A stretch of DNA of 64,000 bases from Candidatus Planktophila versatilis (GTDB lineage: Bacteria > Actinomycetota > Actinomycetes > Nanopelagicales > Nanopelagicaceae). Position 1 is the stretch's first letter. Each line of letters starts with the position of its first letter. The notes beneath the pieces are model-generated. The model did no database searches. It saw nothing but the letters and a program-made list of their open reading frames with translations, and was not told the origin of the DNA. Of the stretch, positions 26,605 through 46,637 are shown in pieces. Location of the stretch: NCBI RefSeq assembly GCF_002288105.1, contig NZ_CP016774.1, positions 372,001 to 436,000 on the forward strand, given 5' to 3'. The position numbers and the translations under genes were made by a program.

Positions 26605-26735
26605 GGCCTCAGCCTAGGTGTGGGGACTGACAATCAAGTGCTATCCCTAGGTAATACCAAGATGATTACACCCTGCTGATAAAGACTTGGCAGGCGTGGA
26701 CTGCCATTTTGCACCGCATTGCTACCATTTCGCGT

Positions 26736-27887: not shown

Positions 27888-28012
27888 TTAAGTGTTAGCG
27901 GGAAGTAAGGTCTTACGCACTACTAATCACACACCTCTGTTTGCAATGAGCCTAGCAAACGCTCAATAATCGGATTTCGCACCTAAATGACCCAGTCTTA
28001 AAATCCCTTTTA

Positions 28013-28513
28013 CTAGTCAGTTAAACCTAAAATCTTTGCCTTAGAAGCTTTAAACTCAGCTTCATCAATAAGTTTCCGTTCAAATAAATCACTCAATTTC
28101 TCCAGTTGTTCAATAGTGTCAGGGCCAGAATTATCCAGCTTATTCGATGGCGTACTAGAAATCTTGGATTTGAAAGGTGCAAAAAAGGCCTTAATTTCTG
28201 GCTCTGATTTTTTAGGAAAACGCAAAACAATAGGGTCGTTACTATTTTTAAAGTCAATAAAAGCGAAGGCCTCACCAGTTTTTTTCTTAAACGCAAATGC
28301 AAAAACGCCGGTCAAAAGGAGCCTGCTAGCTGTAATTCTCTTTTGAATTGCGTCAGGTCCCTCTACTGAAAGCTCTGAAACATCAGCCCATGGGTAAAAA
28401 ATTTTCGAACCCCATCCTTCGGCAATCTCAAATCCAGAATCGGTTAATGCAATAACAATTGAGTTTTCAGCATCTCCATGAATTTTTTCTGCTTTCATTA
28501 CACTTTTGCTCAT
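28013..28513 (-). CDS. SHOCT-domain protein with PH-like N-terminal region
   Basis: A 166-aa cytoplasmic protein. The N-terminal ~115 residues form alternating beta strands around IFYPWADVSELSVEG and FAFIDFKN, a pleckstrin-homology-like pattern seen in bacterial PH proteins. The last ~32 residues (IEQLEKLSDLFERKLIDEAE, then FKASKAKILGL) are a textbook SHOCT helix pair, a short oligomerisation domain. The gene is isolated and A+T rich. No function is known for this architecture. Confidence 0.72.
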   Translation of the reverse strand: MSKSVMKAEKIHGDAENSIVIALTDSGFEIAEGWGSKIFYPWADVSELSVEGPDAIQKRITASRLLLTGVFAFAFKKKTGEAFAFIDFKNSNDPIVLRFPKKSEPEIKAFFAPFKSKISSTPSNKLDNSGPDTIEQLEKLSDLFERKLIDEAEFKASKAKILGLTD

Positions 28514-28629
28514 TGGTAATCCATATTCTTAAAGCGAATTTACTACGATTTTTTGGTGGGCTCTGCAAAGGTACTCTAGAAATTACTCTCTGCCTAGGTG
28601 ATAGAACCATAAACTTTCTCAGTTAAGAG

Positions 28630-29181
28630 TCAACTGAGCAGCTCCTTGAAATCATCCACCCGCAGGTAATCCTTAAACATCTGCACCGATCTACTCGTTG
28701 CCTTCACCTTGGAGAGGTGGAACTTCGCCTCCCACCGATCAAGCTTGATGTATGGCTCATTACGCCATGATGGCACTGACTCAAAGAGCACTCGTGCTTG
28801 CAAGGCTCCCCAATCAGAGATGCTGCCGGCAACATCAAGAAAGTGCAGCAGATCCTTTGCTGCCTCTTCCTGAATGCGCTTAGTTGCGCTGATGGGAATC
28901 CCGTATCCATTCATGATTGAGTGCCGCCCCAGTGGCAGGCTCACCCCGTGCTCACTTGCTAACTTACGGTTGAACTTTAAGCACACCTCACAGACATTCC
29001 ATGAGTAACGTCCGGTGCCACCTGCAACTGATGAGGCGCACATGTAACACAGGTGAAATCCACTAGGGCAATCAACTCCTGGATATGGTTTATAGACCTC
29101 ACATCTACAGACTTGCATTCCGTGTCCGGCAGATGTGAGACCAAAACAGGTAGTACAGATAAGTAATCCAATCGGTGACAT
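28630..29181 (-). CDS. Cys-rich hypothetical protein with zinc-ribbon-like N-terminus
   Basis: A 183-aa protein. The first 65 residues contain four closely spaced cysteine pairs (CTTC, CRC, CYMC, CEVC) plus single Cys, most likely two zinc-binding knuckles. The remaining ~115 residues are helical and charged, without Cys. I do not recognise the family. It lies at the left edge of the accessory region and is transcribed away from the Cys-repeat gene at 29448. The 266-bp gap between them holds nothing I can identify. Confidence 0.6.
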   Translation of the reverse strand: MSPIGLLICTTCFGLTSAGHGMQVCRCEVYKPYPGVDCPSGFHLCYMCASSVAGGTGRYSWNVCEVCLKFNRKLASEHGVSLPLGRHSIMNGYGIPISATKRIQEEAAKDLLHFLDVAGSISDWGALQARVLFESVPSWRNEPYIKLDRWEAKFHLSKVKATSRSVQMFKDYLRVDDFKELLS

Positions 29182-29447
29182 AGCAAATAGTCCTTACTGG
29201 ACCTCATAGATAGAGACCCGCTCTTCCAGCGGTGTCTTTCATCGCTGGCAGGTCTTCCTTTAGAACCACCGTGCGCGAGTTATGCGCGGATTGGTACTAA
29301 GCAAGCTAAAGGGCTTAACGCTTAGTTCTTGACCTAGGGAAAGGGTAGCAGGGGGGAGTGACAAATTTTCTGAGCGGTCTACTCTTTTATTGAGATTAGA
29401 GGCAGAATCAAGTCACTCACCCCTATGCCTAAGGTAAGGAAATTCGT

Positions 29448-29975
29448 ATGAGCTTCTACAACACACCTGGAACTCCCACGTGGGAAAAAGTCGTTGAAGG
29501 AACTTGCATCAAAACTGGCTGTGATGAGTACGTGAACGAGTACGGACTTTGTTATTCACATGAATATTCATGTCATGTCCCTGCATGCAATCAAGACTCA
29601 TACAGAACTGATGATGGGGATGGATTTTGCGGGATACACGAAGGTAAGTGCTGGAAACCCAATTGCCCGAATGCCTGCTACGAGAATGGCATTTGCTTCC
29701 AGCATGAAAAACAATGCCAAAAATTGGAATGTGATGCTCCAATTCAAGCTGGCAAATTTTGCCCATATCACGTCAATTCTTGCTGGAAACCTTATTGCCA
29801 AGACATGGTCGCTGAGCGAGGGCTTTGCTTAACGCATTCAATCCAATGCATTAAACCTTACTGTGATGGAATCCCATATGAATACGGGATCTGTATTTCT
29901 CACAGCCTCGAATGTGCCTATCCATTCTGCGATGGGATTATCTATGAGAATGGCCGATGTATGTCGCATGAGTGA
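29448..29975 (+). CDS. Tandem Cys3His repeat protein, 175 aa
   Basis: After a 19-residue lead, the protein is seven consecutive repeats of about 22 residues, each C-x4-C-x(8-12)-C-x2-H. Examples are the unit from CIKTGC to CYSH and the unit from CIKPYC to CISH. Every unit keeps all four potential zinc ligands, and the later ones carry a conserved Y-x-Y/E-N/Y-G before the third Cys. No signal peptide. The architecture suggests a string of small zinc knuckles for binding protein or nucleic acid. ATG at 29448 follows a TAAGGA-type binding site. I know no family with this exact layout. Confidence 0.8.
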   Translation: MSFYNTPGTPTWEKVVEGTCIKTGCDEYVNEYGLCYSHEYSCHVPACNQDSYRTDDGDGFCGIHEGKCWKPNCPNACYENGICFQHEKQCQKLECDAPIQAGKFCPYHVNSCWKPYCQDMVAERGLCLTHSIQCIKPYCDGIPYEYGICISHSLECAYPFCDGIIYENGRCMSHE

Positions 29976-30075
29976 GATATGTAAGTTTCCGCTTAAAGGG
30001 CAGTTCACCATGCCCTTTCGGGAATAAGAGGCGCGTCCAGGGCGTTTAAATCACCACATCTATAGAACAGGACTT

Positions 30076-31125
30076 ATGGCTACTGCAGCAGGCGAGATTT
30101 ACTTTATTGGGGAAAAAGATCTCCGTACCAAGGAAATCACTCCTTACTTCAAGGTTGGAATCGTTCGGGAGAATCCTGAAAACGCCGATCGGGATTCCAC
30201 TCAACGCTTACTTGAGCATCAAACTGGTAATCCACGTGAGCTCTACATTGAGAGCGTCGTCAAGACTGACCTTGTTGAGTTGGTAGAAACCCTGCTCCAT
30301 AAGAAGTTCGCACCCCTTGGTGTCCGCGGCGAGTGGATGAAGCTCACTGACGCAGAGCTCGAGCAGGTTAAAGTAGAAGCGAACGCATTAGCTGCAGAAG
30401 CAAAAGGGATCATTTCTGACCTGCAAAAAGCAGAGAAGCTTGCCAAAGAAAAATCAGACGAGGTCACAATCCCTGCGACGGACGAATTGATTGCCTTAAA
30501 TGAGATATATCTAGAGTCAAATGCAAAGCTCAAGGCATCTGATGAGATGTTTGATGTGATTAAGGAAGTCCTCTCTGATGCACTTGAAGATGAAGATGAG
30601 GAAGAAGAAGTTGAGGCTTTTGTCAAGGTTCAGGAGAAAAAAGGCAAGTCCGTCTTTGATGAAACTGCTTTTAAAGAGAAGTACGAGGCTATTTATAAGA
30701 AGTACATAATTACTAAATCAACAATCAAAGGAACAGCTAGTTACTCAGGCTCGCGCACCTTTAAGAAAGAATTTGCAGAATTTGATCCTGGCTTTGCCAA
30801 GATTGTTGAAAGTTTCGATCCTCTAGTTGAAAAGATTGCTGCAGGTAAGGAGAAGAAGGAGGCACTTCATGCATTGAGCCTTGACCTGCGCCGTGCCTCA
30901 GCTGAAGCAGAGTGGTCAAAGATGAAAGCCGAGAGCAAAATAAAGGTAGCTTGTGGAACTCATGCTGGAATTGAAGGCGTCTTCAAGTGGGTTCGCACAG
31001 AGAAGATCATTGAAAGTCTGGATAGGAAAGCACTGAAGGAAGCTCATCCCGATTTGGTTGAAGAGTTCACCGCCGCTGGGGAGGCGATAAAGGCAGTTAT
31101 CGTCGATCCGAAGAAGGGCTACTAA
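30076..31125 (+). CDS. GIY-YIG/T5orf172-like protein with coiled-coil C-terminus
   Basis: A 349-aa protein. The N-terminal ~95 residues fit the T5orf172 branch of the GIY-YIG nuclease superfamily: GEIYFIG, YFKVGI, an Arg in the QRLLEHQTGNP helix, Glu in LVETLLHKKF and a closing GEWMKL. The rest (about 100-349) is charged helix with a very acidic stretch (LEDEDEEEEVEAF, about residue 175). Such domains occur in phage and mobile proteins and in some defence loci. Whether it cuts DNA is unknown; the Arg/Glu pair expected for catalysis appears present. Single gene, flanked by gaps of 100 and 280 bp. Confidence 0.7.
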   Translation: MATAAGEIYFIGEKDLRTKEITPYFKVGIVRENPENADRDSTQRLLEHQTGNPRELYIESVVKTDLVELVETLLHKKFAPLGVRGEWMKLTDAELEQVKVEANALAAEAKGIISDLQKAEKLAKEKSDEVTIPATDELIALNEIYLESNAKLKASDEMFDVIKEVLSDALEDEDEEEEVEAFVKVQEKKGKSVFDETAFKEKYEAIYKKYIITKSTIKGTASYSGSRTFKKEFAEFDPGFAKIVESFDPLVEKIAAGKEKKEALHALSLDLRRASAEAEWSKMKAESKIKVACGTHAGIEGVFKWVRTEKIIESLDRKALKEAHPDLVEEFTAAGEAIKAVIVDPKKGY

Positions 31126-31171
31126 GCCGAACTCCAGGCTTAAGCCTTGTTTGGATTCCTAACGGACTCGT

Positions 31172-31208
31172 GTTCGGAATCCGAACGGCTTGTCGGGATA
31201 TCCCGACA
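31172..31208. repeat. Two adjacent perfect palindromes
   Basis: GTTCGGA-A-TCCGAAC (31172-31186) and the 18-bp TGTCGGGATATCCCGACA (31191-31208) stand side by side, in the gap between the GIY-YIG gene and the TPR gene. They could be a terminator pair without a T run, or a site for a dimeric binding protein. Confidence 0.7.
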
Positions 31209-31254
31209 GTTTGAACCCTGACCCCCTTTTTACGCTCAACCGTATGATTATCGT

Positions 31255-31270
31255 ACGAACACCTGTTCGA
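31255..31270. promoter_or_regulatory. Candidate LexA (SOS) box upstream of the TPR cassette
   Basis: ACGAACACCTGTTCGA differs in one base from the actinobacterial LexA consensus TCGAAC-N4-GTTCGA, which occurs perfectly near lexA in this same window (53751). It lies 134 bp before the GTG start at 31404. Confidence 0.55.
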
Positions 31271-31403
31271 AATCTATGTTACTCTCCGCTTCCCCCTAAA
31301 ACTCCGCTCCAAGCAGTAACCCCCGGCCCAACGCGAAGATGTCAGTGACGGCCAGTAACTTCTCCATACGTCAGAAGCTCCAGTGTCTATAAGAAGGGTA
31401 ACG

Positions 31404-32333
31404 GTGAGTACCGAACCAAATAATGGAAAAGCCCAAGAGCAAGAACTCTGGGATCGCATTAGCACGACAGAAGGTGCAGAGCGAGCTGAAGTCTTAGATG
31501 AACTCAGCCACATTGCATACAAGAAAGATAACTTCATCGAGTGCTTGAATTTAGTAGATACCTCTATTGATATCTACTTTAAACAAGGCGGCTTAGATAT
31601 TTATCTCACAGAGTTAATTCATCTCTATCACGGAAAAGTGCACTGCTTTGAAAACCTCAAGCGGTATGAAGATGCCGCTAGAACTCACGAGGAGTTAGCA
31701 GTCATGAAGTTCGTTGAAAACGACTTCGAAGCACAAGCTGAAGAACTACGTGCGGCAGGACGTGCGTGGTATCGCACTGAAGAGTGGCGAAAGTCGCTTG
31801 ACAATCACCTAGCTGCAAAAGCAGTACTTGATCCAAGTATCACAACGCTCACGATGGGGGTAGACCTACTCAACATTGGAATGGCGCTAGCGAAGCTAGG
31901 CAGTTATCAAGATGCAGTTGATAATTACTTAAGCGCTCGCTCCCTCTGTAAAGAGGCAAAGAATCCAGAATTTGTTGGATGGTGTGATAACTATCTAGCA
32001 CTGTCATATATCGCCCTTAACAACGGCCCAGAAGCAAAATTCCACGCACTTCACTACTTCAACTACACCAAGGTAACTGAAGATCTAGGAATGGAAGCGT
32101 ATTCACGCTACCGACTAGGGGCAGCCCTTCTCCTCTGTGAAGAGTACGAAGAAGCAGAGAAGCACTTAGTTCGCTCTCTTGAACTACTTACCCTCGATGA
32201 GGATAAGGATTGGGAAGATATCGTCGCGGTAAATAAGCAGCTGGCCCAGGCTCTCACAGCGCTAAACCGTGAGGCTGAAGCCCAAAAGCGTCTTGATCGC
32301 ATCAAGACCATCGAAGAGACCATCGCAGCGTGA
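31404..32333 (+). CDS. Tetratricopeptide-repeat protein
   Basis: A 309-aa all-helical cytoplasmic protein made of about seven TPR-like helix pairs (for example AARTHEELAVM, LLNIGMALAKLGSYQDAVDN, LLLCEEYEEAEKHL). GTG at 31404 is chosen over GTG at 31383 because AGAAGG lies 6 bp before it. TPR proteins are scaffolds for protein contacts. Its stop overlaps the next start (GTGA), so it is coupled to the small membrane protein and probably to the Ntn-like gene. A candidate LexA box upstream would place the cassette under DNA-damage control. Confidence 0.78.
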   Translation: MSTEPNNGKAQEQELWDRISTTEGAERAEVLDELSHIAYKKDNFIECLNLVDTSIDIYFKQGGLDIYLTELIHLYHGKVHCFENLKRYEDAARTHEELAVMKFVENDFEAQAEELRAAGRAWYRTEEWRKSLDNHLAAKAVLDPSITTLTMGVDLLNIGMALAKLGSYQDAVDNYLSARSLCKEAKNPEFVGWCDNYLALSYIALNNGPEAKFHALHYFNYTKVTEDLGMEAYSRYRLGAALLLCEEYEEAEKHLVRSLELLTLDEDKDWEDIVAVNKQLAQALTALNREAEAQKRLDRIKTIEETIAA

Positions 32334-32818
32334 TCAAGTCTCGAGCAGTATTCGCAGCAGGTGCGGGGTTCCTATCCGCCGCACTTGCTGTGACTTACTT
32401 TCAGGTGCAAGAACCCACCGGGCCCAGAGCAATTGCGATCCCTACCACCCTTGCAGATGAAGAAGTCCTTACCTGGAACTGCGAGATCCCCGAATACAAG
32501 CCAGAGTCAATAATGCTCACTTGTGCAGATGGGGGGTGGATGGTTCACACCATCACCTGGAGTAAGTGGGGAAAAGGTGGCGCTGAAGGCATGGGCATTT
32601 TCCGAGAGAAGCTATGTGAACCGAGTTGCGCAGAAGGAGAGATTGCGAAAGAGAAGGTCAAGGTGACGCTCTCAGACTTAACAGAGCGCAAAGGAAAGTA
32701 TTACTTGAGAACGCTAGACATTCGTACAGCATCAGGTAAGGATTTCATGTCTGGCAGGGGCGATGAGCTGAAGTGGGATGTGATGGAATTTATTGAGATG
32801 ATGGGTTGGGATGAGTGA
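32330..32818 (+). CDS. Small membrane-anchored or secreted hypothetical protein
   Basis: A 162-aa protein with an N-terminal hydrophobic segment (residues about 7-24) that could be a signal peptide or anchor. The exterior part has four Cys (NCEIP, LTCAD, KLCEPSCAEG), likely two disulfides, and is otherwise polar. I do not recognise it. It starts with GTG inside the TPR stop codon and ends 9 bp before the Ntn-like gene, so it belongs to the same unit. Confidence 0.68.
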   Translation: MIKSRAVFAAGAGFLSAALAVTYFQVQEPTGPRAIAIPTTLADEEVLTWNCEIPEYKPESIMLTCADGGWMVHTITWSKWGKGGAEGMGIFREKLCEPSCAEGEIAKEKVKVTLSDLTERKGKYYLRTLDIRTASGKDFMSGRGDELKWDVMEFIEMMGWDE

Positions 32819-32827
32819 GGATTTAAG

Positions 32828-34054
32828 ATGACGGCAATTTTTGCTCTTTGGAATACTAGCGGCTTTTCTCTTGCTGCAGATTCGAATCAAAGAATTAATG
32901 AACCTGGACAGATTTGGATTGACCCAATTCAAAAGATATTTTCTCTCCCAAATCACCAAGTTGCTTTCGGTGGAGCAGGTGATTCGCTTATTGACATGGT
33001 TGACGTCAATGTGCTGGTTTCAACCTGGTCAAAAAAGTTAAAGGAACCGCTACCCACCATAGAAGATTATGCAATTAGTTTTTTGAATTGGTTTAACGAT
33101 CAAGAGTTGCCTGACACATCTGCCGAACTTAATCTAGATGAATTTGATTCTACAATTAGAGAAAACTTTGAAATTCTAAAGACTGAGTATCCGCGATTTA
33201 TGGAGGCTAATGCAGAGGAAATCGCAGACTTTCTTGCCAGTAAAATGGTAAAACAACCGATAGCTGCCCTGAATGTATACGGTAACAGGTATCTTGATTT
33301 GGAAATAAATAAATTTGAGTACGAATCTGATGCTGAGATTTTGAGTTACGAAAGTATTTTTCGGATACATAATGAAGTTTCTGCTTATCGAATAAGTTCA
33401 GAATCCTATAAAAACTATTGGGCTAATTGCTACACTCGCTGTTTTTCGCGAGCTTCAGAAATATTTCCCAGCATTGCAGGTGAAGAATTCGATTCAGATC
33501 GGGATTGGCATATTGGGTTAATTGACTCCTTGATTGAAGTGCATGAAAATTTATTTTTCCCGGATGCGACTTATGCACGATGCATGCTTATTGGGTATGG
33601 AGAGAATGATTGGATTCCCAGAGCTGTAGTTTTTCGTATCTATGATTCTGAATGGGGGGTTCGACAGGTCGCAGTTGAGCAAGTTTTAGACCCCAAATTT
33701 CAGTGGTACGTGACAATTGGAATCTCATCTGGTGTCGGTGATCTAGCGAGAGGTTACTCAAGCGACTTCCATGAAAGTCTCATAGAAGTTTCTTCTGAAT
33801 CTCTTGACGAATCAACTAATAGCGAATTAATGTCTAAGTTATATGAGTTGGGTACCCAACGAATACAAAAAAGTCTCAACAGAATCGACTCGCTTACAGT
33901 GAGAAGACTAGAATTCGTTGCACGCTTATTCGTGGAACTAGAGGCGTTAAAATCATATCTGAATGAACCGTTACCTGGCGTCGGTGGAGATGTCCAATAC
34001 ATTACAATGACAAAGGATTCTACAAAAAGTGGCGTTTATCATGAGTACAACTAG
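32828..34054 (+). CDS. Candidate proteasome-like Ntn-hydrolase, 408 aa
   Basis: The N-terminus Met-Thr-AIFALWNTSGFSLAAD, then KIF and VAFGGAG, follows the proteasome/HslV beta-subunit pattern. After Met removal Thr becomes residue 1, Asp of AAD is residue 17 as in proteasome beta subunits, and the Lys of QKIF is residue 35 (33 in the proteasome), followed by a GGAG loop. The downstream ~340 residues are much longer than in HslV and include an acidic helical middle and a C-terminal helical tail that I do not recognise. If real, it is an autoprocessed threonine hydrolase or a peptidase-like sensor. The gene is A+T-rich like its neighbours. Identification is by motif only. Confidence 0.55.
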   Translation: MTAIFALWNTSGFSLAADSNQRINEPGQIWIDPIQKIFSLPNHQVAFGGAGDSLIDMVDVNVLVSTWSKKLKEPLPTIEDYAISFLNWFNDQELPDTSAELNLDEFDSTIRENFEILKTEYPRFMEANAEEIADFLASKMVKQPIAALNVYGNRYLDLEINKFEYESDAEILSYESIFRIHNEVSAYRISSESYKNYWANCYTRCFSRASEIFPSIAGEEFDSDRDWHIGLIDSLIEVHENLFFPDATYARCMLIGYGENDWIPRAVVFRIYDSEWGVRQVAVEQVLDPKFQWYVTIGISSGVGDLARGYSSDFHESLIEVSSESLDESTNSELMSKLYELGTQRIQKSLNRIDSLTVRRLEFVARLFVELEALKSYLNEPLPGVGGDVQYITMTKDSTKSGVYHEYN

Positions 34055-34107
34055 ATGACTAGAAATCACTTCTATTTGAAGTAGAAAGTCGACTGGAAAA
34101 TCTTGGT

Positions 34108-34185
34108 ATGACTGATGCAGATTCGCTTTCAATCGAATATATCCAGAAGAGATTCAACAAGCGGATTAACGAGGCAAAGAGGTAG
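34108..34185 (+). CDS. Possible 25-aa peptide or remnant between Ntn-like and ART-like genes
   Basis: ATG to TAG gives a 25-aa charged helical peptide (SIEYIQKRFNKRINEAKR at its end). The frame is also open upstream from 34063 with protein-like composition (LLFEVESRLENLG), so it might instead be the tail of an eroded gene. Its stop lies 4 bp before the ART-like ATG. No good ribosome binding site is seen. Confidence 0.3.
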   Translation: MTDADSLSIEYIQKRFNKRINEAKR

Positions 34186-34189
34186 ACAA

Positions 34190-34792
34190 ATGCAAAGTGA
34201 GAATCAAAGTAGAATAGAGCAGGCTAGGCTCGAGAAAAAGTATGAAGGATTAAAACTTCTGTATCACGGTACAAGCCTATTTAACGCTCAGTCCATGGCT
34301 ACGAGTTCAGCAAAGAGACCAGCAAATACTCGACTCGCAGAGGAACTCTGCAGTTCATTCAACAGTACGCTTGCTGAAGTTGTGGCTGACAAAAGTAGCC
34401 ACGGCTTCTTTGATCAATTTGTCTTTGCCAATTCTCCTGCGCAAAGCCGGGATAAAGAGATTTATACCTCTACGGGCTTTGTCCTTGCCGCGAATTACGC
34501 TTCCAGAGGTCCTGAGTGGAGATATCACCTATTAATGTACTTTGCGAGCAAAGCCTTAAATACTTCATTTAACCCTATGGCCCACAATGAAGAAATCGAA
34601 ACTTGGATAAAGAGATATGCAGAACCTGCCGCAATTGTGATACTCGATGCGTCTAACTATCCTAAGTACCCAGAAATTAATGAATTTATCAAGAAGCTCA
34701 GCAAGGGCGATACTGTAAGAATTCCCTATCCACTTCCAGATACAGTGAGAGTGATTGAGTTTATACAGTGGGGAAACGAGATTAACTCTTGA
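34190..34792 (+). CDS. ADP-ribosyltransferase-like (PARP/ART fold) protein, 200 aa
   Basis: The N-terminal LLYHGTSLFNAQSM has the H-G-T motif (His26) that binds NAD in ART-fold enzymes, and the middle DKEIYTSTGFVLAANYASRG fits the second motif (Y-x-T/S...A-x-x-Y-A). A clear third-motif Glu is not obvious; candidates are in YPEINEF and VIEFIQWG. It could therefore be an active transferase, a 2'-phosphotransferase-like enzyme or an inactive binder. ATG at 34190 is chosen because AGAGGT lies 6-7 bp before it; a longer frame begins at 34115. It ends overlapping the convergent YbjN-like gene by 11 bp. ART proteins in such regions are often toxins or defence effectors. Confidence 0.6.
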   Translation: MQSENQSRIEQARLEKKYEGLKLLYHGTSLFNAQSMATSSAKRPANTRLAEELCSSFNSTLAEVVADKSSHGFFDQFVFANSPAQSRDKEIYTSTGFVLAANYASRGPEWRYHLLMYFASKALNTSFNPMAHNEEIETWIKRYAEPAAIVILDASNYPKYPEINEFIKKLSKGDTVRIPYPLPDTVRVIEFIQWGNEINS

Positions 34793-35261
34793 TTTCAGTC
34801 CAGCGCTTGCCACCGAATTTCTCCTGAACTTCATCATCGAGTTGGTCCGCCATGGCGGCAACAATAAATGCAGCGTGCTTGAGCTCTCCAGGAGAAATCT
34901 GATCACCCGCCAATGCATAGACGAAAAATAGATCGCAGGTTCCCTCATCATCGAGTATGACCTTGATTGAACCAAGGTTTCTCCGTGAATCCGTTGCAAC
35001 CCATTGGAAGAGTGCGGGAGATCTGGGTACATCCATAGCTAGGAGGGCTCGCACTCGAATCAACGTGTTAGGAAGCTGGTGTGTGTTCACAAATTCTTTG
35101 ATTTTGGCGGTATCTGGACGAGACATGGTGACAACGTCAATCCAGACCTTAGTAGATTGGTATTCAAAGGTAGTATCCCCATCAGGGTCAATTTCAGCAT
35201 TCGAGAAAATTGCCTTGGTGTACTCAAAAACCTTCTCTTTGACCTCTTTAACTAGAGTCAT
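34782..35261 (-). CDS. YbjN/T3SS-chaperone-like (TY-Chap) protein
   Basis: A 159-aa cytoplasmic protein with the alpha-beta pattern of the YbjN/CesT-type peptide-binding chaperone fold: an N-terminal helix, a middle strand region and LFQWVATDSRRNLGSIKVIL, then LFFVYALAGDQISPGELKHA and ADQLDDEVQEKFGG. Proteins of this type bind peptides of a partner. The adjacent divergent kinase carries a related domain at its C-terminus, so the two genes probably act together or interact. The divergent gap holds two inverted repeats. Confidence 0.72.
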   Translation of the reverse strand: MTLVKEVKEKVFEYTKAIFSNAEIDPDGDTTFEYQSTKVWIDVVTMSRPDTAKIKEFVNTHQLPNTLIRVRALLAMDVPRSPALFQWVATDSRRNLGSIKVILDDEGTCDLFFVYALAGDQISPGELKHAAFIVAAMADQLDDEVQEKFGGKRWTEIKS

Positions 35262-35284
35262 TGTCTTAACCTATTTCCTCGGAC

Positions 35285-35335
35285 GTACCGAAATGGTACC
35301 TAATTGGCGCTTTACATGTTAAAAAAAGTGCCAAT
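35285..35335. promoter_or_regulatory. Two inverted repeats in the divergent promoter region
   Basis: GTACC-GAAAT-GGTAC (35285-35299, perfect) and ATTGGCGCTTT / AAAGTGCCAAT (35303-35313 and 35325-35335, one mismatch) lie between the YbjN-like gene and the kinase gene. They are likely operator sites for divergent control. No regulator gene is next to them. Confidence 0.5.
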
Positions 35336-35381
35336 ATGAAAGACTTCGGCCAGGTCAGTTGAGGCGTGCGAAGGGGATGAA

Positions 35382-37766
35382 GTGACGTTTACTCCACCCG
35401 AGCAACTTGGGAAATGGTTGCGACAGCATCGTCTTGGCAACGGGGCGTTCGGTGACGCCTGGGTCTTTGAGGACTCCAGTGCCAAAAATGAGTACGCGGT
35501 GATTAAATTCTTAACCCAGTCACAAGAGTCGATTACCGTGACAAAGAAACGATTTAAAAAAGAGAGAGATATTCTTTCTAAATTGAATAACCCGCGGGTA
35601 TGTCGACTTCTGGACGATGATTTGGATTCAAATCCGCCGTGGATTGCGACAGAATTATTTGGAGGTCGTCCTCTCAAATCTGAGATTACTGAGAGTTATC
35701 AGTTAGATGAATTCACCTGGGTCAGATTAGCCAACGATGTACTTGAAGGGTTAACTTACGTCCACTCACTAAAAATTAAGCATCGCGACTTAAATCCAGG
35801 CAATATCGTATCTACCGCCGCGGGCTACAGAATCATTGATTTTGGAATTTCTTCCCAGGGTCAGGCCCAAGGAACTTATTCTGGGAACCAGAGAATATTT
35901 CATCGGCTTTATGGATCACCTGAGCTTTATGATGAGAATCAGGTGATAGATGAGAAGTCAGATGTTTTTTCACTCGCCACCCTTCTTGTCTTTGCGGCGA
36001 CACACAGATCTCCTTGGACAACAGATACACGAGTTTCATCAGATAGAGAAGTAACTCAAGGAATTTTTGAAGAGGTTGCCTACAACATTATAAAGTCGGA
36101 ACCGCAGTACTACGGCATGAGTTCAAATCAGAAAATACTGCTGCGCAAGATGCACGAAAAAAATCCTAAAAACCGTCCCTCTGCCGAGGAAGCACTGAAG
36201 GAGCTGAAGAAGTTATCGGATAAAGAGTTTGTGAATTACTTGGCGGCAGGAGCTCCCAAGAGACCTAGTAAATCGGCTCCGGTAAAGGTAGCTCAACAAA
36301 ATATAAAGGATGCAGATCCAAAAAAGAGCCCGAAAATTGTCATTTCACCACGCGTAAACCTCTCCAAAGAAGAGAGTAAGGCACTAAAGAAAGAGAGCAG
36401 TCATCGTCAGCAGATGCTGATTAAAATAATCGATTCAGAATTCGGCCATGATGCACTTGCATCTGATTTTCCTCAACGGGCTGCTGTCAAGAAAATGCTT
36501 ACTGTCTTAGATCTTCTGACAACGGAAGAGATGGAAGATGTGAGCCGTCAAGTCAATGCGAAACTGGGCTGGGAGTTTATTAAGAATTTACCAGATCCAT
36601 CACAGGCCGGCGCCCCCATCAAAACAAAACCGACCAAACTCGCGATATCAACTAATCGGGTGCAAGTTGTCGAGGGATGGGCTTCAGTGGATCCAGCTAA
36701 CTTATCAATCTCCGGAAATTCTGTACAAGTGGATGCAGAGGCTTGGCCGGCCCCTAAACCCAAAGAGACTGGTCCCAGAAATCCTGGCAACATCGCGAGT
36801 TTCCTTCAAATTTATTGGAAAGACCTCTTAATCGGTTGGCTGACGACGCCGATTGGCTGGCTTATTTACCGAGCTTACAAAAAGCGAAATGCACCTTCCC
36901 AAGGTAGTTCTGAAAACGCTGCAATTAGCTTAAAGGGTTGGAAAATTGGGTATTTAGTAACGCACGGTATTTCATTCGGATTTTTAGGTCCGGTAGCTGG
37001 AATCCCCTTTGCCTTCCAACTCAAATCCAAGCCCGTGTCTGTATTCATGGCGATTAATTCCATTGCAGTCTTCATATTTTTCGGTGCAATTGTCTCAACT
37101 CCTTCGGGGAGTGAGGTTGCCACCTACGCAACCGCAGTCTGGGTGATGAATTACATTTTCGGTTTCTTCCTTCCTCTTGCAATGCGCCGAGGAAAAGTTG
37201 AAGACCAAGTACAGTCACCGGAAGTTTCAAATCAGCTCCCCTCCACATACTTAGCCGAGGGCGAGAAGATAGATCCTTTTGATGATGAAGAGTATTTTGC
37301 CAATGCTCAAGCCAAGCTCAAGAAGGAGCCGGTCAAGCAGACCTGGCTACATCTCGGTGATGAAGTCACCAAGATACTGAACCACTCGGGTATTGAGAAT
37401 TTCAATATTGCTTTTGCTCAACTAGATATAGAAGGAATTTACTTCCAAGGGTTCAGAGAAAAAAGTGGATGCATAACGATTGAGGCTGCTTCAAGCTTGA
37501 GTGTTCGTCCAGAAGTCACTAGTGAACAGAATCGAAACATTATTCGCTCCGGATGGGAGCCGCCAGCTGGTGAGAACCCAAACTACGTCAAGTTCCTAGA
37601 TTTGACCCAGAGCAATCTTGAATTCATTTCGAGTCTGATCATTTCAACACTTCGCGATGGATATGGTGTTGGCTTGGAAGGACTGCAGCCCGTATTTAGC
37701 GTAAGCATGGATGGAGAGATCATCTATGTAGATTTCGAAGAATTTAAGCGACTTACTTCTCAGTGA
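35382..37766 (+). CDS. Membrane Ser/Thr protein kinase with C-terminal YbjN-like domain
   Basis: A 794-aa transmembrane kinase. The Gly loop GNGAFGDAWV and Lys42 (VIKF), the catalytic loop HRDLNPGN (Asp136; Asn138 replaces the usual Lys of HRDLK) and DFG (Asp153) lie in residues 1-280. A charged linker (about 290-460) leads to about four membrane helices (475-610). The last ~150 residues hold LDIEGIYFQGF, IIRSGWEPPAGENPNYVKF and LRDGYGV, the mark of the TY-Chap peptide-binding fold. GTG at 35382 has AAGGGGATG upstream. The 3' end overlaps a convergent gene by 7 bp. Transfer to Ser/Thr is expected, but the HRDLN change makes activity uncertain. Confidence 0.82.
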   Translation: MTFTPPEQLGKWLRQHRLGNGAFGDAWVFEDSSAKNEYAVIKFLTQSQESITVTKKRFKKERDILSKLNNPRVCRLLDDDLDSNPPWIATELFGGRPLKSEITESYQLDEFTWVRLANDVLEGLTYVHSLKIKHRDLNPGNIVSTAAGYRIIDFGISSQGQAQGTYSGNQRIFHRLYGSPELYDENQVIDEKSDVFSLATLLVFAATHRSPWTTDTRVSSDREVTQGIFEEVAYNIIKSEPQYYGMSSNQKILLRKMHEKNPKNRPSAEEALKELKKLSDKEFVNYLAAGAPKRPSKSAPVKVAQQNIKDADPKKSPKIVISPRVNLSKEESKALKKESSHRQQMLIKIIDSEFGHDALASDFPQRAAVKKMLTVLDLLTTEEMEDVSRQVNAKLGWEFIKNLPDPSQAGAPIKTKPTKLAISTNRVQVVEGWASVDPANLSISGNSVQVDAEAWPAPKPKETGPRNPGNIASFLQIYWKDLLIGWLTTPIGWLIYRAYKKRNAPSQGSSENAAISLKGWKIGYLVTHGISFGFLGPVAGIPFAFQLKSKPVSVFMAINSIAVFIFFGAIVSTPSGSEVATYATAVWVMNYIFGFFLPLAMRRGKVEDQVQSPEVSNQLPSTYLAEGEKIDPFDDEEYFANAQAKLKKEPVKQTWLHLGDEVTKILNHSGIENFNIAFAQLDIEGIYFQGFREKSGCITIEAASSLSVRPEVTSEQNRNIIRSGWEPPAGENPNYVKFLDLTQSNLEFISSLIISTLRDGYGVGLEGLQPVFSVSMDGEIIYVDFEEFKRLTSQ

Positions 37767-38830
37767 AGCGCCTTACTAACGAATTTTTCAAAGTCTTTGA
37801 TGGTCTGAGCGCTGGGCTTACCTAAACACTTAATGACCAGCAGTAAGCCGGGCTTACTCACAATCTGAGTGCCGATATCAGGCAAGTTCTCTTCATCAAA
37901 AGATGCTGCAAGAACTTGAGCCTCAAGATCCTTGAGAGCTTGCATGTTCTCCTTCTTGGGCTTGTAATAGGCAAATAAACCTTCACCCTTTACCGCCTTG
38001 AACTCGACTGCGCCATGATCTAACACTAAATCGATGCGGGAAGTATCTGTTTTTACTTCAACAGCTTTCTCATAGTATGAAGATAGTTGCTGATAAGCAC
38101 GATTTAGTTGGGGTGATTGATCGAATCTTTCTTCTGTTGGCGAGATTGCAGACATAACTCGGTAGTTAAATGATTTGTCAGGATCAATTGTTCCTGATGA
38201 GGCATAGAGAATATGGGCATCATGGAGAAAGACTTCAAACTCGGAGAGATAACTATTTCTTGTAAATTTCTCGCCTAGTTCAAGATTTGTGAATCTTACT
38301 TTAATTTTATCTAGCCAACCCGGAATGGCTTCTTTTGAAACTATCTTGGTGCGTAATAGATCTGCACCTTCTTCAGATTCTAGAAAGTTGATGATGGCCT
38401 TCACCGAGCGATTTCTATAATAATAAGCCTGCTTCAGTCCTCTAATCTTTTTGAACTCACGCTCTAGGAGAAAGAGCATTTCTTCACTTATTTCCTTTAG
38501 GTCTTGTGCTCCGATTGTGTCAGAATATGTGCGAGTTAAATACTCTTGGACACGAATCCTTTTATCCTTCTCGAATGCAACACTTGACATTATTTCTGAA
38601 AGCCACTGAAAATCAAAGCTAGTTCTTTGCGTGCGCAAGACTGACACATGAAAGGTTCTAAAGAAATTATTTAACTCGTTTTGAATAAAGCTATTTGCGT
38701 TAACTTCGACTACTGCCTGAATTTCTTTTTTTCGCACTTTGCGATCCACTTCAAAGAGACCCTTGATGTGTTCGAGAACATCTTTACCCGTTGTTGTCTC
38801 GGTAAAGGCCACCGCATTGGACTTGGACAT
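37760..38830 (-). CDS. Hypothetical protein with PD-(D/E)XK-like nuclease motif
   Basis: A 356-aa mostly helical protein. Near residue 265 the segment SRIDLVLDHGAVEFKAVKGE places Asp267, Glu276 and Lys278 as in the PD-(D/E)XK nuclease core (strand, D, short turn, strand with E-x-K). The first 260 residues are charged helices with Tyr/Arg-rich parts (QAYYYRNRSVKAI) that may bind nucleic acid. I know no named family. It lies between the kinase and the Cys-containing small gene and is transcribed leftward, convergent with the kinase. Nuclease activity is a motif-based guess. Confidence 0.6.
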   Translation of the reverse strand: MSKSNAVAFTETTTGKDVLEHIKGLFEVDRKVRKKEIQAVVEVNANSFIQNELNNFFRTFHVSVLRTQRTSFDFQWLSEIMSSVAFEKDKRIRVQEYLTRTYSDTIGAQDLKEISEEMLFLLEREFKKIRGLKQAYYYRNRSVKAIINFLESEEGADLLRTKIVSKEAIPGWLDKIKVRFTNLELGEKFTRNSYLSEFEVFLHDAHILYASSGTIDPDKSFNYRVMSAISPTEERFDQSPQLNRAYQQLSSYYEKAVEVKTDTSRIDLVLDHGAVEFKAVKGEGLFAYYKPKKENMQALKDLEAQVLAASFDEENLPDIGTQIVSKPGLLLVIKCLGKPSAQTIKDFEKFVSKALH

Positions 38831-38960
38831 GGATCTCGATTCTGGGTAGAGGAGGGGCCCTGGGACCCCTCGAGGGATCTAATATTACCGAAATATCCGA
38901 TTTTTTGGAAATATTTTTAGGTATTTTTTGAAATTACGCTCAGTAACGGCGTGTCTCGAT

Positions 38961-38990
38961 TTGCAATATTTAGTAATGTTTGCTTATAAT
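38961..38990 (+). promoter_or_regulatory. Promoter upstream of the 39057 gene
   Basis: TTGCAA and a perfect TATAAT are separated by 18 bp, 67 bp before the GTG start of the small basic protein. It likely drives 39057 and, by read-through, the following rightward genes to 46635. Confidence 0.65.
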
Positions 38991-39056
38991 AGGACCCTAG
39001 CCACACCGGCTATACCAAGTAAGGCTCAGAAGGCCTTAAGAAGTAGGAGTTAAACA

Positions 39057-39428
39057 GTGAGTGCTGACAAGTTCTCTAAGGGTGCTTTTGCAGTGTGCAA
39101 GGATCGCAGCTGCCAACGCCCAGCAGGAAAGTATGCAAACCGTGCCAAGGGCCAAAAGCCTGAAAACCGCCTAGTCAAGGTTCTAGAAGAGCGTTGTGAG
39201 AAGAAGTGCTTCCGCTCGATAGACCGTGTGAAATACGCCGTGCAAAGGGCGGAGAACGCCCGCATGCGCGCTGAGGCAGATGGGCTCTCGTCCAAGCGCC
39301 GCGAGCTTCGTTGGTTTGAGTGCCACAGCCATGGCGTAAAGATGTACCACCTCACCAGCGTGGATGAGGCCGTATACATCGCCCGCTTTGAGGCCTCCAA
39401 GCGTGGGGAGTACAGCCTTGCAGCCTAA
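39057..39428 (+). CDS. Small basic Cys-containing hypothetical protein, 123 aa
   Basis: A 123-aa highly basic protein with Cys14-x4-Cys19 and a later CEKKC pair (ERCEKKCF), so it may bind one metal ion, and a C-terminal SVDEAVYIARFEA helix. Unrecognised. GTG at 39057 has a GTAGGAG binding site. A consensus promoter lies upstream, and the gene overlaps the next one by 11 bp if that gene starts at TTG 39418. Confidence 0.65.
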   Translation: MSADKFSKGAFAVCKDRSCQRPAGKYANRAKGQKPENRLVKVLEERCEKKCFRSIDRVKYAVQRAENARMRAEADGLSSKRRELRWFECHSHGVKMYHLTSVDEAVYIARFEASKRGEYSLAA

Positions 39429-39945
39429 TACCAATGATGCATTCCAAGAGTTGGTATCAGCCAACACTGATCTATCGGTATCTATGCACGCGATGTACAT
39501 GCTTCGTCGATTCCGCAGTTTGGGAATCCTCGCTGAGTACATCCAAAAAGACGGCGCCTTTGCTTACCTTCGCATCCCAGCTAGTGATGGAGCGCGGCTT
39601 GAAATTCGCCCTCTTTCTACACGGGTCAACGATGTTGTCACAGTTCAGCCACTCATGGAGTGGAATGAATATCCAGAGCCACTGCGCTCAGCTTTGCAGA
39701 AGGCTAACAAGCCAACTGGCTTCTATCGATACAACGCACACATTGAACTAATCGTCGATGACTATGAACCGGAGTATCCAGATCGTCAATGTTTGGCCTC
39801 TGAAGATGGTCCTTGCGAGCTAGCCGACTTCAATTTCTCAGCCAGAGATTTCCAACAGTTCATCTTTGGCGCCATCTTCCATATCAAGGAAGAGACAGGT
39901 TTTGAGGTCTACCCAGACTTTCGCAGATCGCGAGTTGCACTCTGA
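39418..39945 (+). CDS. Hypothetical protein, 175 aa
   Basis: A soluble acidic alpha/beta protein with a helical N-terminus (HAMYMLRRFRSLGILAEYI) and a tail of alternating strands (HIELIVDDYEPEYPD, then FIFGAIFHIKEETGFEVYPD). Family unknown. I place the start at TTG 39418 because GGGGAG lies 7 bp before it, inside the end of the previous gene; a GTG at 39403 or the longer frame from 39364 lack such a site. The overlap implies translational coupling with 39057. Confidence 0.6.
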   Translation: MQPNTNDAFQELVSANTDLSVSMHAMYMLRRFRSLGILAEYIQKDGAFAYLRIPASDGARLEIRPLSTRVNDVVTVQPLMEWNEYPEPLRSALQKANKPTGFYRYNAHIELIVDDYEPEYPDRQCLASEDGPCELADFNFSARDFQQFIFGAIFHIKEETGFEVYPDFRRSRVAL

Positions 39946-40035
39946 AAATGGAATCAACCACGAAAAAGAAAAAGTTAATTGCACACATAGTAATAACCAC
40001 GGTGAAAATCACCACTGTTCGAAAGGAGAACGCCA

Positions 40036-41346
40036 GTGCGCACAAAGTTCATTCTTGATACCGATTTAGTGGCAAACCAGCAGGATGAGAACCTCACGCT
40101 GCTCGTTGAAATTAAGGCCCCCACTGCAGCACTTCAGGGATCTCGCCCAGCACAGGGAGTAATCCTTGCAATCGACAACAGCGGGTCCATGGCTGGAAGC
40201 CCACTTGATGCGGCTAAAGAATCCGCCCTCAAGCTCCTTTCGCAACTTGATAAGAAAGACTGGTTTGGTCTCATCACCTTCGATGACACCGCTCGAGTTA
40301 TTGTGCCGATGCGTCGCATGGGTGAGCACGATCTGCTTGCAGTCAAGCAAGCGATCCGCAATATTGAAGATGGCGGATCTACCGATATCGCAGCCGGCTA
40401 CACAATGGCGTTACGCCAAGCTCGCACATGCACAGCTGAAGCGGGAACGACTGTTCTACTAATCAGTGATGGCCATGCCAATACCGGAGAAACCGATCCG
40501 GCATTCTTTACCGCCGTCGCATCCAAGGCTGCGACCGAGAAAATCTCGTGCAGCACCATCGGACTATCTAATGGATATGACGAAAAGATTCTTGAGGCTA
40601 TTGCTCAAGGTGGGGGAGGCGGACACCGCTTTGCTCACGGTGTCGATGAAGCGATTGGCGCCTTTGCTGCTGAGTTCAATGACTTGCTGGAAAAAGTTGC
40701 GGTCAACGTAGTTATGAAGTTAACACCCACCGCACTTGCTGAGGGCATCCCTTCCATTGAGATTATCCAGCGACTACCATTTTGGAGAGAAGGTAACGAT
40801 TACTTCGTTCAACTTGGAGATTTTTATGGTGGAGAAGAACGCCGATTTGTCATGGATCTATCCATCCCTGGAATCGCTGCACTTGGCCTTTGCAAAGTCG
40901 CAGAAATCTCCATTGAATATTTGGACTTGCAGCAGCAATGTGAAGTACAGGTAGTGCTTCCCGTGCATGTCAATGTGGTGCCAGCAGATGTCGCAGCTGG
41001 CCGGGTCGAGGATCCGATTGTAAAAGCCGAGCGATTAATCTTGTCTGCGCAAGTAGAGAAGGCAATTGCGACCGACGAATTGAGGGCAGGAAATACAAAG
41101 CAAGCTTCTTCACGCCTTAAAGGCACTGCTGAAAATCTACGTCGTATCGCAGCAGAGATCCGGGTTGTTGATGAACGCACCGCCGAATCCCTCGCAATCA
41201 TCTTGGAAGAAGCACAAGATATGGAAAACCTCGCACAAGTTGCAGAAGTCGAAGATGCCGCTTTTTCACAGAAACTTCTTCACGAGAATTATTCTCGCAA
41301 GACCCGTTCACGTAATGAACGCCAAACACCAGAATCTTCAAACTAA
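40036..41346 (+). CDS. von Willebrand factor type A (vWA) domain protein
   Basis: A 436-aa cytoplasmic vWA protein. The MIDAS metal motif DNSGSM (about residues 47-52) follows GVILAI, with further metal contacts expected in GGSTDI and LLISDGHANTGE. The C-terminal half has a beta region and a helical tail (TAESLAIILEEAQDMENLAQ). No signal peptide. vWA proteins of this type act as metal-dependent adaptors, for instance in TerY-P modules with a kinase and a phosphatase. GTG at 40036 is preceded by AAGGAG. The phosphatase gene starts 14 bp after it. Confidence 0.85.
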   Translation: MRTKFILDTDLVANQQDENLTLLVEIKAPTAALQGSRPAQGVILAIDNSGSMAGSPLDAAKESALKLLSQLDKKDWFGLITFDDTARVIVPMRRMGEHDLLAVKQAIRNIEDGGSTDIAAGYTMALRQARTCTAEAGTTVLLISDGHANTGETDPAFFTAVASKAATEKISCSTIGLSNGYDEKILEAIAQGGGGGHRFAHGVDEAIGAFAAEFNDLLEKVAVNVVMKLTPTALAEGIPSIEIIQRLPFWREGNDYFVQLGDFYGGEERRFVMDLSIPGIAALGLCKVAEISIEYLDLQQQCEVQVVLPVHVNVVPADVAAGRVEDPIVKAERLILSAQVEKAIATDELRAGNTKQASSRLKGTAENLRRIAAEIRVVDERTAESLAIILEEAQDMENLAQVAEVEDAAFSQKLLHENYSRKTRSRNERQTPESSN

Positions 41347-41360
41347 GAGAAAGAGAGACC

Positions 41361-41855
41361 ATGTACCCACTACCACCACTATTTTCTGAAATCTTGCCTA
41401 ACTTGTTTATGGGAGGGACAGATGACGATGACGTCATTCATATTCCGGCCCGTATTTACAACCGCAGAAATGAACTCCCTTTTGATGCGATAGTGACGAT
41501 GTATGAGTTAGCTCGACCAGCTTTTGGGGGCGTCCTAGAATTCCGCTACGGAATCCCTGATGCCGCCATGACAGATATCGATCTAGATCGCCTACGCGAT
41601 GCGGTTGAATTCGCACACGCCCGCTGGAAGGAAGGCGATCGAGTTCTTATCCGTTGCCAGGCAGGCTTAAACCGATCTGGCTTGGTCACGGCATTAGTGC
41701 TGATCAAGGAAGGGCACGACCCAGCAATGGCAATCGAGCTTCTGCGCACCAAGCGCGATCGCGATGCTCTCTGCAATCTGGACTTTGCAACCTGGATCGG
41801 GGAGAACGCACTGGCCTTTCTCGCCCCTGCTGAAGGCGTGGTTGGCCATGCATGA
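41361..41855 (+). CDS. Dual-specificity/tyrosine phosphatase-like protein
   Basis: A 164-aa protein with the Cys-based phosphatase loop RCQAGLNRSG (Cys99-x5-Arg105) and Asp-containing turn before it (PDAAMTDIDLDR) as general acid candidate. The residue before Cys is Arg instead of the usual His, an unusual feature that may change the Cys acidity. The fold and length fit DSP-type phosphatases. It probably removes phosphate from targets of the kinase at 35382, or from a nucleotide or RNA substrate. It ends 25 bp before the PLD-helicase start. Confidence 0.8.
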   Translation: MYPLPPLFSEILPNLFMGGTDDDDVIHIPARIYNRRNELPFDAIVTMYELARPAFGGVLEFRYGIPDAAMTDIDLDRLRDAVEFAHARWKEGDRVLIRCQAGLNRSGLVTALVLIKEGHDPAMAIELLRTKRDRDALCNLDFATWIGENALAFLAPAEGVVGHA

Positions 41856-41880
41856 AGTTGAGGATGCGGGGGGAACGAAA

Positions 41881-44025: not shown

Positions 44026-44170
44026 TTTTGAAGTAATTAGATCTTTTGTTTCAAATTCTGATTTTTCAGAGGAGATAAAGGAAGCCCTAATGCAGTGCAT
44101 AGCACTTGAAATTCAGGACGCCGGACCTACCGAGTACCTTAATCTGGTCAAGAAATTGAGCAGCGAGTAA
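44018..44170 (+). CDS. 50-aa acidic helical protein of the PLD-helicase cassette
   Basis: ATG at 44018 lies inside the end of the helicase gene, and the TAA at 44168 is directly followed by the ATG of the SMC-like ATPase. The product is 50 aa, acidic, likely two or three helices (SEEIKEALMQCIALEIQDAG), with no known motif. AGAGGAG sits about 9 bp before the ATG. The tight overlaps on both sides and the strong binding site argue for a real gene, probably a small subunit or linker of the complex. Confidence 0.7.
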   Translation: MSDFEVIRSFVSNSDFSEEIKEALMQCIALEIQDAGPTEYLNLVKKLSSE

Positions 44171-46192: not shown

Positions 46193-46635
46193 GTGAAGTA
46201 ATCAAAAAAACGAGAAGACAAGCATTCAGCTGGGATCCGGAGTTTAAGCCGGTGCTAAAAGATTTAGAGTATTACCTCTTAAAGAATTCAGGAAAGACTT
46301 CGATATCCAACCTGAATCTTTTCATGCTTTGTCTTGGAATTGGGTTCGAAGCAAAGATGAAGAGAGACGTTCCACCACGCAAAACAGACTCAGCAAGACT
46401 AGAGCATATCCCGGATCAGCAAATGGCTGTCATCAAATCAATAGCGATAGCAGACACTAAAGGTTATCTTGTGTTGCAGGATGAGGATGCTGTTTACGAC
46501 ATAGTAGAGCAGTACGCTGCTGGAGGTCTTATGATTCTTGCAAATGAAATCGCTCAGCAGAAAGACTTCGGTGGTTGGCTAAGCGCGAAGCTGTACACTC
46601 AATCAAAGAATATAATTAATCATCTTGTTGAATAA
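46189..46635 (+). CDS. Hypothetical protein, 148 aa, last gene of the PLD-helicase cassette
   Basis: A 148-aa basic N-terminus (KKTRRQAF) is followed by a helical domain with NLNLFMLCLGIGFEAKMKRD and a C-terminal ILANEIAQQKDFGGWLSAKL. Unrecognised; a ribbon-helix-like or DndE-like DNA-binding role is possible by position and charge but I see no firm motif. It is coupled to the ATPase by ATGA overlap and ends 2 bp from the convergent restriction-modification gene. Confidence 0.65.
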   Translation: MSEVIKKTRRQAFSWDPEFKPVLKDLEYYLLKNSGKTSISNLNLFMLCLGIGFEAKMKRDVPPRKTDSARLEHIPDQQMAVIKSIAIADTKGYLVLQDEDAVYDIVEQYAAGGLMILANEIAQQKDFGGWLSAKLYTQSKNIINHLVE

Positions 46636-46637
46636 AA

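Follow-up and report, generated by a model that had tools for sequence, protein, structure and literature searches.

A forward-strand gene of Candidatus Planktophila versatilis (32828..34054 of the window, the 64,000-nucleotide stretch of contig NZ_CP016774.1 analysed here) probably encodes a stand-alone proteasome-type N-terminal nucleophile (Ntn) enzyme, a divergent branch of the kind described as PMI-4 (Proteasome homolog with Multiple Insertions 4), working by the mechanism proposed below. The gene, a proteasome-like Ntn-hydrolase candidate that matches the prokaryotic virus orthologous group phrog_5990, is an intact open reading frame (ORF) of 408 amino acids with an ATG start and a TAG stop. 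Alignments and structural models support its resemblance to proteasome beta subunits in fold and active site, and from the same material we infer catalysis, a barrel-less state, a role for a small partner protein and a function in defence.

The protein begins MTAIFALWNTSGFSLAADS, and an AGGA motif resembling a ribosome-binding site lies just 5' of the ATG. The first-pass annotation of this DNA had pointed to a Met-Thr start, an Asp 16 residues further on, a Lys in KIF and a GGAG loop, and each of these is found in the ORF exactly where it had been placed. Thr2 (codon 32831..32833) is the candidate nucleophile, which would be Thr1 after removal of Met, and in the model it superposes on residue 1 of the 20S beta subunit. 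Asp18 (32879..32881), inside LAADS and 16 residues past Thr2, is equivalent to proteasome Asp17, and Lys36 (32933..32935), inside KIF, to proteasome Lys33. The GGAG loop covers residues 48–51 (32969..32980), residue 48 being mature residue 47. Further along, the GYG motif (residues 256–258, 33593..33601) starts the second half of the Ntn core, and VGG (residues 385–387, 33980..33988) lies in the last core strand, where the profile alignment has SGG in 20S beta. The two halves are separated by a long helical insertion after H1/H2 (residues 103–246, 33134..33565), the middle of which is poorly predicted in the model.

The gene is not an isolated oddity, since a large family stands behind it. As a single-sequence query, the window protein found only itself in genome_contigs, viral_contigs, plasmids, phages and 396 genomes of the phylum; among 296 genomes of the taxonomic family, the same type of search gave one other full-length homologue, L002 in genome G421 (33% identity, E=1.6e-55), and five short matches (E 0.03–0.08) that are probably chance. 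L002 provided the entry route: as a tblastn query its protein led to one Streptococcus satellite phage, two Streptococcus prophages and one Enterococcus plasmid, and the Javan85 member then retrieved 13 phage and 10 plasmid records. A two-row alignment (A1) found no relative in viral_contigs, whereas the 14-row alignment A4, which includes L002, recovered 441 relatives among 500 candidate stretches of genome_contigs, from bacteria and archaea, and 143 among 158 candidate stretches of viral_contigs; 80 relatives from each source were analysed as loci (L022–L101 and L102–L181, respectively). Hosts of the phrog_5990-type family thus comprise bacteria, archaea, phages, satellites and plasmids, and in all records whose annotation was inspected the gene is called a hypothetical protein. 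The first-pass annotation had regarded a stand-alone Thr hydrolase next to an ART-like protein as unusual; the proteasome-type fold and active site held up, and the supposed uniqueness did not. Within the taxonomic family, A4 matched four of the 296 genomes: the window's own, G421, G637 (a shorter protein of 279 residues) and G659 (a 23-position fragment), and it found no homologue in the same-species genome G652. The shorter 279-residue type of proteasome-like protein is encoded in a same-genus genome at L184 817–1656, and an overlapping 51-residue ORF with a GTG start (1640–1795) comes after it.

The phrog_5990 profile (427 positions, no assigned function) matches residues 1–92 of the window protein (E=1.8e-6), only its first 95 positions being matched significantly, and it matches all 111 family members. 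The Pfam proteasome model PF00227 is not reached by the window protein; 25 of the 111 members match it at E<=1, the best at 1.7e-4, values that do not include a comparison with the Pfam cut-off. No protein of the window's own genome matched PF00227 (0/1), and the same search found it in 10 of 14 reference genomes used as a control, so that the window protein may be the sole proteasome-type protein of its genome.

Conservation of the active site was assessed in A4 and in a larger alignment, A5, which holds the window protein and 110 family proteins, L002 not among them. For A5, the 160 loci were reduced to 156 by dropping L070, L172 and two that lacked an in-locus stop or carried an ambiguous residue, and then to 110 at 80% non-redundancy; its rows were chosen for a tblastn match starting at query residue 1. 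Thr2 is present in 110 of the 111 rows, the remaining row having Ser, and Asp18, Ser19 and Lys36 are present in all 111. Thr2, Asp18 and Lys36 are likewise invariant in A4; position 19 is Glu in L002. Because the three residues are kept across both alignments, the pattern in the window protein goes beyond chance. The proteasome-like catalytic order proposed in the first-pass annotation is therefore a property of the family, and homologues lacking the Thr, which would have spoken against it, come down to the single Ser row. Both glycines of GYG (with Tyr or Phe between them) and the whole of VGG are also found in 111 of 111 rows. At position 48 the window protein has Gly, and 104 of the 111 rows have Met; by eye we equated this position with proteasome Gly47 of the oxyanion hole, a numbering that we assume here.

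The family has no propeptide, as judged from the sequences: all 160 loci gave a match, and in 158 of them it sets in at the start residue itself. Thr is the next residue in 157 of these and Ser in L078; the matches of L070 and L172 begin later, and that of L091 begins at TTA, a non-start codon five residues past an ATG.

Profile and structure comparisons led to the same fold. Searched against PDB sequences, the A5 profile placed archaeal 20S beta subunits first (E 0.0012–0.0014), with Thr2 on their mature Thr1 and VGGPIDV on SGGMIDV; designed-helix and cullin rows in this search (E of at least 0.005) match the helical insertion. The window model, built from 111 sequences, has a mean predicted local distance difference test score (pLDDT) of 73.1 and a predicted template-modelling score (pTM) of 0.71, and is poor at residues 147–163, 291–301 and 400–408. 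Its best Foldseek E-value is 4e-3, the matches listed being 20S subunits, Anbu and HslV. VIA-align superposed it on Anbu (Z 12.7, 3.4 Å, 192 residues) and on the Thermoplasma acidophilum beta subunit (Z 12.5, 3.5 Å, 179 residues, residue 2 on residue 1), rows within 1 of each other counting as tied and a Z of 12–13 being possible by itself for helical models. All 50 VIA-align matches listed are proteasome or Anbu, with an aligned range from residue 2 to the last strand; a BFVD structure search was uninformative. The model of a family representative, L054 (89 sequences), was better (pLDDT 93.2, pTM 0.89) and gave a Foldseek E of 9.1e-6 and a VIA-align Z of 16.0 to yeast beta5. Set against the Ntn fold, the check that had been suggested for this gene, both models match the alpha-beta-beta-alpha core.

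In both models the chain opens with the N-terminal strands and the helix pair H1/H2, continues through a long helical insertion into more strands, and then forms helices that contain a second insertion before it ends in the last strand. The insertions are predicted at residues 103–246 and 328–354 of the window protein; in L054, helices 101–209 follow H1/H2 (62–73 and 81–93) and are well predicted, and the second insertion (316–359) precedes the last core helix (362–382). The protein had been described as far longer than HslV, and these helical insertions after H1/H2 and between H3/H4 account for the extra length. No helix is predicted between the strands of residues 21–52 in either model, meaning that the S3/S4 insertion of connectase is absent.

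We propose that methionine aminopeptidase removes Met1, that Thr2 thereby becomes the nucleophile, and that Asp18 and Lys36 complete the triad with it. The long insertion after H1/H2 would prevent stacking into barrels of the 20S or HslV type, which would leave a monomer or small oligomer working without an AAA+ unfoldase; a Pfam scan of neighbouring genes recognised no such unfoldase beside the window gene. The enzyme may then cleave or ligate specific protein substrates. An alternative is that it is a protein ligase or transpeptidase like connectase instead of a protease, forming a Thr1 acyl-enzyme with one specific substrate, possibly a small partner protein. Connectase is indeed a monomeric proteasome homologue that ligates, and PMI-4-type insertions look incompatible with barrel packing in the models of Fuchs et al. 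(PMC8665760); most family members also have one dedicated small neighbour that could serve as substrate. However, the signature insertion of connectase lies at S3/S4, whereas the long insertions here follow H1/H2 and separate H3 from H4, and a partner is missing at the window locus. We consider a dedicated ligase unlikely.

The small neighbour just mentioned is a short ORF directly downstream of the family gene. We counted as partner any ATG ORF of 40–80 residues starting between −30 and +40 nucleotides from the family gene's stop, and applied this test to the 104 of the 110 non-redundant loci with at least 290 nucleotides downstream, six shorter loci being left out; mechanical ORFs of at least 150 residues from the same loci served as controls, and the loci are not fully independent. 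A partner ORF follows 94 of 104 family genes versus 94 of 767 control genes (Fisher p 1.4e-60), and the excess appears in loci of genome origin (60/68 versus 54/528) as in viral ones (34/36 versus 40/239). When a Shine-Dalgarno-like motif was also required, the counts were 74 of 104 and 40 of 767 (Fisher p 5.2e-53). Many Bacteroidetes loci pass only without this requirement, which we attribute to the weak use of the Shine-Dalgarno motif generally known in Bacteroidetes. No ATG partner was found in ten loci (L035, L051, L052, L062, L066, L067, L072, L086, L118 and L140), three of which (L062, L072 and L118) have a candidate with a GTG start.

The partner ORFs have a median length of 59 residues. 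In 28 pairs of related partners, many of them redundant, differences at codon positions 1, 2 and 3 number 296, 215 and 661, and in 12 distinct pairs 136, 103 and 274 (summed by hand); this excess at third positions indicates a coding ORF maintained by purifying selection. It is annotated as a coding sequence (CDS) in four records (L009, L011, L012 and L013); in an Escherichia coli record (L195) nothing is annotated between the family gene and the next, and in the near-identical L157 the ORF was found. The sequences themselves are very divergent, with a mean column identity of 9% in their alignment (A6); a Pfam search found no recurring family among them, and one of them hits a PHROG with no assigned function. 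A motif devised here, hydrophobic residues followed by F-x-P, fits 29 of 94 partners, so the partners are grouped by position and length, and shared ancestry of all of them is not implied. The divergence, the lack of a recurring Pfam family and the absence of the ORF from the window locus and from L002 would all suit a leader, an antisense artefact or a loosely linked gene; given the 94 of 104 against 94 of 767 controls, the third-position excess and the four CDS annotations, we think it very unlikely that the ORF is any of these. It looks like a dedicated partner of the family enzyme, and in most of the family the 40–80-residue protein might control the enzyme as inhibitor, assembly factor or specificity adaptor.

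Together with L002, the window protein forms a divergent branch of the family, as the two sequences indicate. At the usual partner place the window has an ORF of 25 residues (34108..34185, forward strand), too short and, at +53 nucleotides, too far for the partner test; in L002 a convergent gene lies about 70 nucleotides downstream and no small ORF passes the test. Both proteins lack the DGFIWIKRKHYF-type tail (IWIKRKHYF) that the other 12 rows of A4 carry. The window protein also has Asp388 where Pro, and Gln390 where Asp, is fixed in the other 110 rows of A5. With this C-terminal divergence and without the tail, its activity or substrate could differ from those of the family. That tail and partner are missing together from two sequences is no more than suggestive; the branch may have lost both or never had them. 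The missing parts, the two changed positions and the single close homologue among 296 genomes could also mark the window copy as a relative of the family that is decaying or no longer catalytic. We regard this as quite unlikely, because Thr2, Asp18, Lys36, the GYG glycines and VGG are all retained, the frame is intact over 408 codons, and L002, at 33% identity, keeps the same residues.

Outside the window, the family gene is found mostly at cargo positions. It is the last gene, after the lysin, in Javan85, and the final or penultimate one in two satellites; it lies between methylase and lysis genes in a Providencia phage, and runs opposite to the antiterminator Q and neighbouring prophage genes in E. 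coli H3, whose type of gene occurs in 9 of 5426 E. coli genomes. A Porphyromonas phage, with the gene inside its structural block, is the exception. Recurrent neighbours formed only small sets, mostly of prophage genes. In Rhizobium, Mesorhizobium and Shinella (L015, L019, L020, L021 and L084) the family gene stands beside multiubiquitin and ThiF (E1) genes, and the Rhizobium and Shinella loci have, in addition, a ClpP-like gene and in most cases one for DUF6527. This link was seen in four of seven plasmid records inspected (ten were found; H22, H24 and H27 were left out) and, by phmmer with queries from two plasmids, in 1 of 110 non-redundant loci (L084, Shinella); we therefore rejected it as a family rule and take it for a local rhizobial association.

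The window gene resides in a strain-specific island of ~19.3 kb (27898..47218), which bears out its earlier reading as an accessory gene: the same-species genome G652 matches the window at 25869–27897 and resumes at 47219, with ~1.35 kb in between. A C5 methyltransferase gene spans the right edge of the island, and its counterpart in G652 shares 75% identity with it; no tRNA was found within the 64-kb window. Immediately upstream, on the same strand, are a tetratricopeptide repeat protein, likely the first gene of the transcription unit (31383..32333, PF13424, E=1e-12), and a 162-residue protein with a hydrophobic N-terminus and no known Pfam domain (32330..32818). The start of the second overlaps the stop of the first and its end lies 9 nucleotides before the window gene, which makes one transcription unit likely. 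The suggested functional coupling to the 162-residue exported protein was rejected, since relatives of that protein occur in 90 of the 296 genomes and only two of these carry the window gene. The downstream neighbour once called ART-like (34115–34792) reaches the cut-off of no Pfam family and probably starts with an ATG at ~34191, after a ribosome-site-like AAAGAGG.

Further genes of the island include a TY-Chap1 gene on the reverse strand (34782-35261, Pfam) and, on the forward strand, a 794-residue Ser/Thr kinase gene (35382-37766) whose C-terminal TY-Chap3 is just above the Pfam cut-off, a PbeA-like PLD/helicase defence gene (41764..44025, PADLOC PbeA, E=2.9e-199) and a PbeC-like, DndD-related ATPase gene (44171..46192, PADLOC PbeC, E=3e-55). 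VWA and dual-specificity phosphatase genes are also encoded there. A 148-residue ORF without known family follows the PbeA/PbeC-like genes (41764–46635), and a Cys-rich ORF of 175 residues with repeated C...C...H-type units lies at 29448–29975. The window gene shares the island with the kinase and TY-Chap genes and lies within 4 kb of them, and could on that account be a protease effector of their system; gene order places it in a separate transcription unit and L002 has other neighbours, so we find this improbable. Among those neighbours is a gene (L002 3079–3927, opposite strand) with a trypsin-like GNSGGP motif.

Several points weigh against a proteasome-type enzyme at this locus. Its activity is predicted from sequence and model. 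Alone, the window protein matches no Pfam, NCBIfam or PADLOC model and no meaningful PDB sequence; a match to phosphoserine aminotransferase (E 0.067) was dismissed as chance because it is confined to the insertion and without other support. In the model the insertion is poorly predicted and the Foldseek E-values are weak, none reaching 0.001. The protein diverges at otherwise fixed C-terminal positions and lacks the tail, the partner ORF is missing at its locus, and having defence genes nearby in a single island lends little weight to a function in defence.

In most of the family, the enzyme and its partner would form a pair that prophages, satellites and plasmids carry as cargo and that acts in a defence-like way. 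Tentatively, we suggest that PMI-4-like proteins could be the enzyme half of a so far unrecognised two-gene conflict module, a barrel-less Thr hydrolase with no propeptide, checked or aimed by a rapidly evolving protein of 40–80 residues whose gene starts at the enzyme's stop codon and which might serve as a sacrificial substrate, as an adaptor or as a propeptide supplied in trans. Such a module would have spread among bacteria and archaea on prophages, satellites and plasmids, lying in some rhizobial plasmids beside a multiubiquitin-ThiF system, and the window gene would be a partner-free, tail-less offshoot taken up into an actinobacterial defence island. Apart from the 20S, HslV, Anbu, BPH and connectase groups, proteasome homologues are for the most part known from sequence alone, and a partner ORF at 94 of 104 loci gives a direct handle through co-expression, pull-down and inhibitor labelling of a defined pair. 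If the pair does take part in phage competition, a proteasome-type fold would be added to the protease effectors already known in bacterial immunity. Being without partner and tail, the window branch offers a natural contrast for the roles of those parts.

The 20S proteasome beta subunit and HslV belong to peptidase family T1. The window protein shares with them the fold and the order of catalytic residues; unlike them, it is twice as long, has two insertions and no propeptide, and does not match PF00227. Anbu, which gives the window model its top structural Z (12.7, a tie with 20S beta), likewise has no known unfoldase; unlike the window protein it has a C-terminal coiled-coil helix, and it is not among the homologues described with a long H1/H2 insertion (PMC8665760). 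Connectase, like the window protein, is a proteasome homologue with insertions, and it forms no rings; it differs in its insertion site (S3/S4) and is confined to some methanogenic archaea (PMC8665760).

The closest counterpart comes from Fuchs, Alva and Lupas (2021), who report 22 new proteasome homologues (PMC8665760). PMI-4, one of them, comprises 501 sequences at nr90 from many bacterial phyla, Euryarchaeota and phages, has no propeptide, and carries long insertions after H1/H2 and between H3/H4 (PMC8665760). The family studied here is very probably PMI-4, as compared by description rather than with the representative HDY66466.1: the core with its Thr, Asp and Lys, the missing propeptide, both insertions and the breadth of hosts agree, with Firmicutes, Bacteroidetes, Proteobacteria, Euryarchaeota and phages all represented among the relatives. 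The window branch departs from PMI-4 in lacking the conserved C-terminal tail and in having Gly at the position equated by eye with Gly47. The authors of that study report no genomic context or co-occurrence hinting at function, and the terms "operon", "downstream" and "small protein" are absent from its main text (PMC8665760); among the publications listed by our literature searches, none was on PMI-4 function or a partner. The downstream ORF is thus an addition of the present analysis to a main text that gives no suggestive context. The kind of protein is already known from sequence; what is new about the window branch lies in its details, and the partner ORF is the most useful thing added here.
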